From positions 1 through 64,000 of the forward strand of contig NZ_JARGYC010000011.1 in NCBI RefSeq assembly GCF_029168335.1: a stretch of DNA of 64,000 nucleotides. Direction: 5' to 3'. The notes beneath the pieces are model-generated. The model ran no database searches. It saw nothing but the letters and a program-made list of their open reading frames with translations, and had not been told where the DNA came from. Each line of letters opens with the position of its first letter. Position 1 is the stretch's first letter. Positions 2,462 to 47,151 of the stretch are shown here, piece by piece. Source of the stretch: Psychromarinibacter sediminicola. GTDB lineage: Bacteria > Pseudomonadota > Alphaproteobacteria > Rhodobacterales > Rhodobacteraceae. A program made the position numbers and the translations under genes.

Positions 2462-4057
2462 TCACTCTCGTGAGAGGCGCAGGAGGATCAGGCCGTTCGG
2501 GCCGAGCGTGACCGTGGGGCCGGAGAGGCTGGCCGCTTGTGCCAGAAGGACCTCGCCGGAGGTGCCGAGCTCGTGCGTGACGTCGTCGGCGGACAGGTTG
2601 AAGACGCAGGCGATGTCGTCGCCGCGGGTATAGGCGAGCACCGGGTCGGCGCTGTGAAGAAAGACCTGCCGGCCCTCGCGCAGCGATGGCTCGGCCCGGC
2701 GCAGGGCCAGCATCGTCTTGTAGAAGGCCAGGACGCTGTCGTCGCCGGTCTGCCCGTCGACGGCGCGCGCGGCCTGGGGCGGTTTCACCGGAAGCCAGGT
2801 CTTGTTGGCCTGCGAGAACCCGGCATTGGGGGCGGCGGCCTCCCAGACCATCGGGGTGCGGCAGCCGTCGCGGCCCTTGAGCTCGGGCCAGAAGGTCAGC
2901 CCCTCGGGGTCGGTCAGTTCGTGGTAGTCCAGCTCGGTCTCGGTCTGGCCCAGTTCCTCGCCCTGATAGAGGCAGACGGAGCCCTCGAAGGACAGAAGCA
3001 TCGCGGCGGCGAGCTTCGCCAGCGCGTCCTGGTCGGCGCCGTGCTTTTTCCAGCGGGTCGCGTGGCGCGGCACGTCGTGGTTGGAAAAGGCCCAGCAGGG
3101 CCAGCCCTTGGGCGCGTGTTCGAAGAACTCGCCGATCCGCCGGCGGAAGAAGGACGGCGAGAAGTTGGGGCCCAGCATCTCGAAGGAATAGGCCATGTGC
3201 AGGCGTTTGCCGGAGGTGTACTGGCCCATGATCTCGATGGCGTGGTGGCTGTCGCCGACCTCGCCCACCATCGTGCGGGCATCGTATTCGTCGCAGAGCG
3301 CGCGCATCCGTTCCAGGAAGGCCAGGTTCTCGGGCTGGTTCTTGGAATGCAGGTGGTACTGCATGTCGTAGGGCCGGCGCGCGGGCTCTTCGGGGCGGCG
3401 CGGGTCGGCGGCGTCGTCGGGCAGGCGCGCGTCGTGGAAGTAGTAGTTGACCGTGTCCAGGCGGAAGCCGTCGACGCCGCGCTCCAGCCAGAAGCGCATG
3501 TTGTCGAGGTGGTACTGCTGAACCTCGGGGTTGTGGAAGTTGAAGTCCGGCTGTTCCTTGAGGAAGTTGTGGAAATAGTACTGTCGCCGGCCCGAGTCCC
3601 ATTCCCAGGCGATGCCGCCGAAGATCGCCTGCCAGTTGTTGGGCGGCGCGCCGTCGGGCCTGGGGTCGGCCCAGACGAACCAGTCGGCCCGGGGGTTGTC
3701 GCGCGACTGGCGCGATTCCTCGAAATAGGGGTGCTGGTCGGAGCAGTGCGACAGCACCTGGTCGATGATGACCTTGAGCCCGAGGTCGTGCGCCCTTCTG
3801 ACCATTGCGTCGAAGTCCGACAGGTGGCCGAAGACCGGATCCACGCCGCGGTAGTCGGACACGTCGTAGCCCATATCCTTCATCGGCGAGGGGAAGACCG
3901 GCGAGAGCCAGATCGCGTCGACGCCGAGGTCGGCGACGTGGCCGAGCCGGTCGGTGATGCCCTTGAGGTCGCCCACGCCGTCGCCGTCGGCGTCCATGAA
4001 GGAGCGCGGGTAGATCTGGTAGGTGACGGAGCCCCGCCACCAGCTGTCGTCGGTCAT
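2462..4057 (-). CDS. GH13 alpha-glucosidase
   Basis: 531-residue glycoside hydrolase family 13 enzyme that hydrolyses terminal alpha-glucosidic bonds of oligosaccharides. It opens with [15 protein letters not shown], the usual start of oligo-1,6-glucosidase/AglA-type enzymes. The catalytic (beta/alpha)8 motifs are visible: [11 protein letters not shown] carries the nucleophile Asp, MVGEVGD the acid/base Glu and FSNHD the transition-state Asp. No signal peptide is present, so it is cytoplasmic. The start at 4057 has GGGAGAG upstream; the frame stays open further upstream but without a comparable site. No sugar transporter adjoins it, unlike the agl operons of rhizobia. Substrate specificity (alpha-1,4 or alpha-1,6) cannot be decided. 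Confidence 0.88.
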
Positions 4058-45083: not shown

Positions 45084-45950
45084 ATGAGCACAGACGAATA
45101 CGACCCACCCCGGGTCTGGACCTGGGACAGCGAGAACGGCGGCCAGTTCTCCAAGACCAACCGCCCCGTCGCCGGCCCCACCCACGACGCCGAGTTGCCG
45201 GTGGGCAGGCATCCCTACCAGCTCTATTCGCTGGCCACGCCGAACGGGCAGAAGGTGACGATCCTGTTCGAGGAGCTGCTGGAGGCCGGCCACGACGCCG
45301 AATACGACGCCTGGCCGATCCGTATCGGCGAGGGCGAGCAGTTCGGCTCGGGCTTCGTCGCGGCGAACCCGAACTCGAAGATCCCCGCGCTGATGGATCA
45401 CACGACCAACCCGCCCACGCGGGTGTTCGAGAGCGCCGCGATCCTGATGCACCTGTCCGAGCGCTTCGGCGCCTTCCAGGTCAGCGACCCGGCCCACCGG
45501 CCCGAGATGCTGTCCTGGCTGTTCTGGCAGATGGGTAGCGCGCCCTATGTCGGCGGCGGCTTCGGCCATTTCTACGCCTATGCGCCGAAGAAATGGCAGT
45601 ATCCCATCGACCGCTTCGCGATGGAGACCAAGCGCCAGCTCGACGTGCTGAACCGCCACCTCGCCGACCGCGACTGGATGGCCGGCGGCGAATACACCAT
45701 CGCCGACATCGCGATCTGGCCGTGGTACGCGGGGCTGGTGCTGTTCGACCAGTACAAGGCGGCCGAATTCCTGGACGTGAAGAGCTATACCAACGTGGTG
45801 GACTGGGCCGAGCGCATCTGGGACCGCCCGGCGGTGAAGCGCGGGCGGATGGTGAACCGGCTGAACGGCGACCCGTCGCAACAGCTGCACGAGCGGCACT
45901 CCGCGTCGGATTTCGAACACCGGACGCAGGACAAGATCGCGGCCGAGTGA
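45084..45950 (+). CDS. yghU: Glutathione S-transferase family protein, YghU type
   Basis: 288 residues, the length of E. coli YghU, a disulfide-bond oxidoreductase of the nu-class GST. The N-terminal thioredoxin-like domain starts at HPYQLYSLATPNGQKVTILF with a TPNG glutathione-contact loop. FESAAILMHLSERFG binds the gamma-glutamyl group. The helical C-domain has YTIADIAIWPWYA. The start follows CAGGAGACACG. The stop overlaps the next start as TGATG. Confidence 0.87.
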   Translation: MSTDEYDPPRVWTWDSENGGQFSKTNRPVAGPTHDAELPVGRHPYQLYSLATPNGQKVTILFEELLEAGHDAEYDAWPIRIGEGEQFGSGFVAANPNSKIPALMDHTTNPPTRVFESAAILMHLSERFGAFQVSDPAHRPEMLSWLFWQMGSAPYVGGGFGHFYAYAPKKWQYPIDRFAMETKRQLDVLNRHLADRDWMAGGEYTIADIAIWPWYAGLVLFDQYKAAEFLDVKSYTNVVDWAERIWDRPAVKRGRMVNRLNGDPSQQLHERHSASDFEHRTQDKIAAE

Positions 45951-46426
45951 TGGCGCCGCGCGGCGGCGACGCGGGCGTCGGCGGGCTGGACACGCCGGTC
46001 GGCCCGGTCCGGGTCGCCGTGGCGGACGGCGCCGTGACAGGCGTCGGCTGGGGCGAGGCGGCAGGGCAGGGCAGCGACCCGGTGCTCGACCTGGCCCTGG
46101 CGGAGCTTCGCGCCTACTTCGACGGCACGTTGACGGCGTTCACCGTGCCGTTGCGGCCGCCGGTCTCCGGGCTGACCGCGCGGGTGCTGGCCGAGATGCA
46201 GGCGATCCCCTATGGGGAGACGCGCACCTACGGCGACCTCGCCCGTGCGCTGGACGTGCCGGCGCAGGCGTTGGGCCAGGCCTGCGGCGCCAATCCGATC
46301 CCGATCCTGATCCCCTTTCACCGCGTGCTGGGGGCGACCGGGCTCGGCGGCTATTCCGGGGCCGGCGGCATCGAGACGAAAGTGGCGCTGTTGCGGCTGG
46401 AGGGCGCGGGCGGGCTGCTGATCTGA
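45950..46426 (+). CDS. Alkylguanine-DNA alkyltransferase homologue with Cys to Phe change at the active site
   Basis: 158 residues with the N-terminal Methyltransf_1N-like part (about 1-70) and the C-terminal DNA-binding alkyltransferase domain: ALTARVL-like LTARVLAEMQAIPYGETRTYGDLARAL, quoted as IPYGETRTYGDLARAL. The catalytic motif PCHR is PFHR here: Phe123 is encoded by TTT at 46316-46318. The arginine finger of true enzymes (R-A-V-G) reads Q-A-L-G at 106-109. The product therefore should not transfer alkyl groups. Known alkyltransferase-like proteins carry Trp or Ala at this site and flag lesions for excision repair; a Phe form could act alike, or the gene could be decaying. Confidence 0.85.
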   Translation: MAPRGGDAGVGGLDTPVGPVRVAVADGAVTGVGWGEAAGQGSDPVLDLALAELRAYFDGTLTAFTVPLRPPVSGLTARVLAEMQAIPYGETRTYGDLARALDVPAQALGQACGANPIPILIPFHRVLGATGLGGYSGAGGIETKVALLRLEGAGGLLI

Positions 46427-46431
46427 CCCGT

Positions 46432-47151
46432 TCAGGCGCGGGCCCGCCGCGCCGGGAGCAGCTGCTGCGCGATCCCGGCGAAGACAAGGTAGAGCGAGGT
46501 CAGCACCAGCCCCCAATGCGCCCAACTCGACGGGTCGAAATCGACCCACGCGGACCAGCCGGCGAAGAAGACCCAGGCGAAGGCCACCGGCAGCGACACC
46601 GGCCGCCAGCGGGCCGTGCGCACCGGATGGATGAATTTCAGCGGCAGGAACATCGCCACGGTCAGCACCACGACGATGAACAGGATCGCCCAGAAGTTCG
46701 GCTGCAGCCCGAACAGCACGATGACCACCATGTTCCAGCAACCGGGAAAGCCGGCGAATGAATTGTCCTTCGACTTCATCCCCGTGTTCGCGAAATACAC
46801 CACGCTGGCAAAGGTGATCAGGATGATCGCGATCCATCCCGTCCAGCCCGGCAGCAGGCCCGACTTGAACAGCGCGTAGGCCGGGATGAAGACATAGGTC
46901 AGGTAGTCGATGATCAGATCCATCAGCACGCCGTCGAACTGCGGGGCGTTGACCTTGATATCCGTCTTCCGCGCCAGCGGCCCGTCGACCCCGTCCACCG
47001 CGAAGGCGACGACCAGCCACAGATACATCAGCCCCCATTTCTCGTCGACGGCGGCGAGCATCGCGAGCATGGCAAAGACCGCGCCGGTGGCGGTCAGCAT
47101 GTGGACGGCAGTGGCCTTGATGCGCGGTGTCATCCGGTGGTCATGAAGCAT
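46432..47151 (-). CDS. pcs: Phosphatidylcholine synthase
   Basis: 239 residues with about eight membrane segments. The CDP-alcohol phosphotransferase motif is VDGVDGPLARKTDI with the downstream Asp pair in FDGVLMDLIIDYLTYVF, as in Pcs enzymes. It condenses CDP-diacylglycerol with choline in the inner membrane. Phosphatidylcholine is typical of host-associated and marine alphaproteobacteria. The start is uncertain: an ATG at 47133 (MTPRIK) is also possible, and neither has a strong ribosome site. Confidence 0.9.
   Translation of the reverse strand: MLHDHRMTPRIKATAVHMLTATGAVFAMLAMLAAVDEKWGLMYLWLVVAFAVDGVDGPLARKTDIKVNAPQFDGVLMDLIIDYLTYVFIPAYALFKSGLLPGWTGWIAIILITFASVVYFANTGMKSKDNSFAGFPGCWNMVVIVLFGLQPNFWAILFIVVVLTVAMFLPLKFIHPVRTARWRPVSLPVAFAWVFFAGWSAWVDFDPSSWAHWGLVLTSLYLVFAGIAQQLLPARRARA

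Follow-up and report, generated by a model that had tools for sequence, protein, structure and literature searches.

Phenylalanine at the catalytic cysteine position in one member of a glutamine-finger clade of Ogt-type alkyltransferase homologues in Rhodobacteraceae

Introduction

Ogt-type O6-alkylguanine-DNA alkyltransferases (AGTs), such as the M. tuberculosis OGT (4bhb) and Sulfolobus OGT (4zye), are two-domain proteins. Alkyltransferase-like proteins (ATLs), such as S. pombe Atl1 (3gva/3gx4) and the V. parahaemolyticus ATL (2kif), lack the catalytic Cys. In those parts of a 2023 review on which we draw, ATLs are described as mostly having Trp in place of the Cys, as being without the N-terminal domain and the Asn hinge, and as keeping the arginine finger, a residue that the same review calls highly conserved in AGTs (PMC10779285).

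Both of the positions that concern us here have been mutated in other AGTs. In the sections of the study cited here, Cys-to-Phe substitutions were engineered to mimic benzylated AGT, and in E. coli the human form, C145F, proved extremely unstable (PMC4605297). Purification succeeded for SsOGT C119F, from Sulfolobus solfataricus, which still bound dsDNA, if slightly less tightly; its Tm fell from 80 °C to about 45 °C, and at 50 °C it aggregated (PMC4605297). Mutation of the finger residue of SsOGT, Arg102, reduced DNA binding and left trans-alkylation normal (PMC4605297).

Here we describe an AGT homologue encoded in a 64,000-nucleotide stretch of DNA from Psychromarinibacter sediminicola; the whole of this stretch is called the window below. 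The window protein is a two-domain AGT homologue that belongs to a Gln-finger AGT clade of Rhodobacteraceae (a name coined here) and in which the catalytic Cys is gone.

Results

An AGT homologue with Phe123 and Gln106

Translation of positions 45950-46426 gave a 158-aa protein containing ...VPAQALGQACGANPIPILIPFHRVLG..., and translation and codons together bore out what the sequence-only reading had said of it, namely that the PCHR motif reads PFHR. Phe123, within IPFHRV, stands where AGTs have the catalytic Cys, and Gln106, within PAQALG, where they have the arginine finger (Table 1). The protein matched PF01035 at 4.6e-24 (84.5 bits, cut-off 27) and scored above the cut-off of the NCBIfam superfamily model ogt. 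Among AGT active-site residues, His124 and Glu151 (Cys activation), the flipping Tyr94 and the hinge Asn115 were all kept, and the alignment showed that Arg125 was kept as well.

Table 1. Features at the locus, with positions in the window.
Feature	Position	Strand	Remarks
Glutathione-transferase-family gene (YghU-like, as named in the sequence-only reading)	45084..45950	+	Stop overlaps AGT ATG by one base
Ogt-type alkyltransferase homologue, Cys to Phe at catalytic site	45950..46426	+	158 aa, two domains; translation, PF01035, predicted structure
Gln106 codon CAG, arginine-finger place, clade-wide trait	46265..46267	+	Clade alignment
Phe123 codon TTT, catalytic Cys place (PCHR motif)	46316..46318	+	Clade alignment, genus codons
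CDP-alcohol phosphatidyltransferase-like gene, convergent	46432..47151	-	PF01066 20.1 bits, just under cut-off 22

An AlphaFold2 model, for which 96 window and locus sequences were aligned, had a mean pLDDT of 93.6, with the N-terminal domain formed by strands at residues 9-34 and a helix at 44-57. Using Foldseek, the model aligned over nearly its full length with two-domain AGTs in the PDB (M. tuberculosis, Sulfolobus, human), and the engineered Sulfolobus C119F variant (5llq) took ranks 8 and 11 among its PDB matches. Model and full-length matches agree that the N-terminal domain is kept, as had been claimed earlier. The window protein therefore has in common with Ogt-type AGTs the two-domain fold and PF01035, together with the active-site Tyr, Asn hinge, His, Arg and Glu; unlike them, it is without the catalytic Cys and has Gln for the Arg finger. 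SsOGT C119F is also a two-domain AGT and carries the same substitution, but it is engineered and has its Arg finger, R102 (PMC4605297), whereas the window Phe form is natural and has a Gln finger.

ATL structures matched only about half of the model in Foldseek (83-85 columns, E 1e-3 to 0.05). Like Atl1 and the V. parahaemolyticus ATL, the window protein has no catalytic Cys (Phe123) and has the C-terminal domain fold. However, those ATLs have neither the N-terminal domain nor the Asn hinge and do have the Arg finger, whereas in the window protein the N-terminal domain is present (predicted structure and PDB matches), Asn115-Pro116 is kept where ATLs have a capping loop instead (Asn115 was found in 200 of 200 sampled clade members), and the finger residue is Gln106. 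Membership of the ATLs was rejected on these three features.

Residues at position 123 in relatives

The clade sample comprised 222 loci, drawn from a contig search (best 80 of 466 relatives) and from whole-genome searches, and gave 207 distinct genes once identical cores had been merged and a second copy of the window gene (L002) excluded. The 200 genes with E < 1e-30 were treated as the close clade, with which the window protein agrees in Gln106, sequence and tree position. Among these 200 sampled members (including the best 80 of 466), 198 have Cys at position 123; the two without it are the window protein, with Phe, and a protein of Yoonia ponticola, the single case of Arg. The alignment of homologues proposed in the sequence-only reading was thus carried out, and Phe stands out in it.

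A class sample drawn from 58 alphaproteobacterial genomes (57 families) had 93 PF01035 matches. Two of them were fragments, one was the window gene and one a protein that the clade sample contained, and without these four the sample came to 89; this genome's Ada-like protein was counted among the 89. Here 86 proteins have Cys and three have Trp. All 64 loci of a third set, which included 30 loci from each of two longer sets of matches, have Cys, although only 41 were new proteins and 23 rows were repeats. When the three sets were merged, the 336 distinct proteins comprised 331 with Cys, three with Trp, one with Arg and one, the window protein, with Phe. Among the proteins sampled, the Phe form is found in one genome only.

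Three of the four genus relatives have the gene with Cys, encoded by TGC. The fourth genus genome (G004) gave no match to the gene beyond its second AGT, so the gene looks dispensable within the genus; in the family, no match reached E <= 1e-20 in 116 of 248 genomes. The genus codon bears on whether Phe123 might be a sequencing or assembly error that hides a true Cys. Outside this codon the gene is like that of an active AGT, and the window genome (5.03 Mb, 99.99% complete) is a draft in 278 contigs, as an error would allow. Yet two adjacent wrong bases would be needed to reach TTT from the genus TGC, or one only if the true codon were TGT, and an error in the length of a C- or T-run would shift the frame, which is intact. 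We consider an error distinctly unlikely. The distance of two bases between TTT and TGC also counts against a recent loss of the Cys, as it requires two events or an ancestral TGT. In favor of such a loss, though weakly, TTT is a minority Phe codon, used for 4 of 36 Phe in the AGT gene and its two neighbors, this codon included.

Gln at the arginine-finger position

At position 106, 198 of the 200 sampled clade members (again including the best 80 of 466) have Gln and two have Arg. The class sample gave 84 Arg, 3 Gln, 1 His and 1 Tyr among its 89 proteins, and the 64 loci of the third set, which leans towards the clade because it consists mostly of best matches to the window protein, gave 42 Arg, 21 Gln and 1 His. 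At least eight changes between Gln and Arg were needed on a 158-row protein tree built without column 106, in which 80 of 155 inner branches are open (support under 80). Two further residues were seen at the site with the Cys kept: His in L296/L327 (one gene, AHPVG) and Tyr in L257 (PYAVA).

The sequence-only reading had presented Gln106 as an oddity. The residue itself was confirmed, but it is the norm of the clade. As a widespread natural variant of Cys-bearing AGTs, Gln106 is uninformative on the loss of the Cys. Gln106 and Phe123 as a pair of inactivating changes were ruled out, given that Gln occurs across the clade alongside Cys. An active Gln-finger AGT is plausible, by analogy with the SsOGT Arg102 mutant that still trans-alkylated normally (PMC4605297). 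The proposal that the window protein is an unusual ATL variant found no support: it departs from ATLs in three features, its Gln is not tied to the loss of Cys, and the Phe occurs in a single genome.

Selective constraint on the gene

Sequence conservation was compared across the close clade. At 32 columns conservation reaches 95% or more, and the window protein keeps 31 of them, departing at C123 only; of the 199 other proteins, 153 keep all 32, 35 depart once, 8 twice, 2 three times and 1 eight times. Residues seen in at most two of the 200 number two in the window protein (V108L and C123F), which is the median. V108L is thus the only rare residue besides C123F among the 200 sampled that might be a compensating substitution. 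Nor was accelerated protein evolution seen, as the window protein had a mean identity of 0.551, and the three genus relatives had 0.542, 0.546 and 0.522 (computed against the 207-row alignment minus the four genus rows).

A GY94 branch model was fitted with our own script to 32 sequences (the 30 nearest, including the window gene, and a Yoonia pair) over 149 codons; its likelihood was -11100.85, against -11100.87 from IQ-TREE. In the codon tree used for this model the window gene lies beside the three genus relatives; in the protein tree the window protein lies beside L086, with support of 86. Omega on the window branch was 0.118, against 0.119 elsewhere, and omega = 1 was rejected (p = 2.8e-4), so that the check for purifying selection that accompanied the earlier reading returned constraint at background level. 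In a two-part model of the branch, one part constrained and the other neutral, with other parameters fixed and on a coarse grid, the neutral part could reach about 11% (2 delta lnL about 2.7) to 16% (3.84).

These results bear on the idea that the gene is an old pseudogene. The loss of the catalytic residue is what such a gene would show, but the frame is intact, 31 of 32 conserved positions are kept, omega is at background and a neutral phase covering at least 20% of the branch is disfavored (2 delta lnL 4.65). On these grounds an old pseudogene was disfavored, and we regard it as extremely improbable. The sequence-only reading had held that the case would be one of recent loss if close homologues all had Cys and the gene showed other decay. 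The first part holds for the close homologues found; as to the second, no other decay was seen in the gene. With Cys in its close homologues but no other decay, the gene is better explained as a recent loss than as an old pseudogene. Normal constraint in a gene that has lost its Cys means either that the substitution is recent or that the scaffold is still selected, and the branch-wide measure fits both.

Stop codons inside the AGT match were seen in G210:C44 (L214), G460:C15, G617:C14 and G257:C104, which may be broken copies or over-extended matches.

The Yoonia protein gives a parallel to the window protein. In Yoonia ponticola (L071) position 123 is Arg (CGT), while a near relative (L070) has Cys; over 149 compared codons the two genes are separated by 22 synonymous and 2 nonsynonymous differences, and Cys to Arg is one of the latter. 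The Y. ponticola genome has two other AGTs, both Cys-bearing. Loss of the Cys in 2 of 200 is no commoner than change at other near-invariant columns (0 to 9 departures among 199 others).

Selection on the scaffold would be expected if the Phe form had been retained to bind alkylated DNA without catalysis. It would then have reached an ATL-like function independently, with the flipped base bound without transfer and blocked or flagged for excision repair. The normal constraint on a scaffold that keeps Tyr94, Asn115, His124, Arg125 and Glu151 speaks for such a binder, as do the retained dsDNA binding of SsOGT C119F (PMC4605297), the absence of any Trp-type ATL from the window genome's two PF01035 matches, and the Yoonia case as a second loss of Cys in a constrained gene. 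Against it, the form is known from a single genome, and all of the constraint signal can predate the substitution. Moreover, the missing Cys is the only one of the four ATL features tested that the protein has, and Phe was destabilizing in the two AGTs reported on in the cited sections (PMC4605297), with no compensating change here except perhaps V108L. We think a binder unlikely. Its more specific form, which we judge very unlikely, is a binder newly arisen from a full-length Gln-finger AGT by an independent, two-domain route, in which Phe would stack on or fill the alkyl pocket, Gln would hold the flipped site open, and the Cys-to-Arg change of Y. ponticola would be a second event.

A second AGT and the gene neighborhood

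The other PF01035 protein of the window genome is Ada-like (an AraC-type HTH with an AGT domain) and has both the Cys and the Arg finger. A second AGT occurs in all four genus genomes as well, sharing this motif with its Cys and Arg.

The AGT gene had been said to overlap the stop of the upstream gene, and this proved correct. Conservation of the flanking genes was assessed in 83 loci, two of which are second copies from the same genomes. The CDP-alcohol phosphatidyltransferase-like gene is a conserved neighbor, being near the AGT gene in 61 of the 83, and a glutathione-transferase gene is near it in 10. In two Nioella loci (L061 and L019) the AGT start overlaps the glutathione-transferase stop by four bases, so the Phe form is not alone in being closely coupled to this gene. 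In a genus relative (L003) another reading frame (3466-3955), which may encode a glyoxalase/VOC-type protein, lies between the two genes, and in L004 and L086 the two genes are about as far apart. The window is without this intervening frame, and its two genes overlap.

Discussion

Our preferred explanation, which we hold to be likely, is that the window gene encodes an ordinary Rhodobacteraceae Ogt-type AGT with a Gln finger, whose catalytic cysteine was recently lost in one lineage with a paralogue as backup. Judged from its sequence, the Phe123 protein would have lost alkyl transfer, since in the AGT family it is the Cys that accepts the alkyl group. By analogy with the engineered AGTs, Phe may mimic a permanently alkylated (benzylated) Cys and destabilize the fold, and DNA binding may remain. 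Given the instability of C145F and C119F (PMC4605297), instability is what one would expect of a mesophilic AGT carrying Phe. With a second, Cys-bearing AGT still in the genome, the Ada-like protein, the loss would be tolerated. No relaxed constraint was seen, so a loss must be recent, and the gene may be at the start of its decay, too recently for other damage to have appeared.

If this recent loss is correct, the gene would be a case of a suicide repair enzyme dying first at its catalytic residue when a paralogue backs it up. Retention of the Phe form, on the other hand, would mean that we are seeing an ATL-like protein as it first arises.

A search of the open-licence literature (titles and abstract openings) found neither a Gln finger nor a natural Phe form in AGTs, which is weak evidence of absence. 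Of the two, the Gln-finger AGTs, a large Rhodobacteraceae clade with scattered alphaproteobacterial relatives, are the sounder novelty. This Cys-bearing clade matters more than the Phe form, and base flipping with a Gln finger in AGTs is directly testable.
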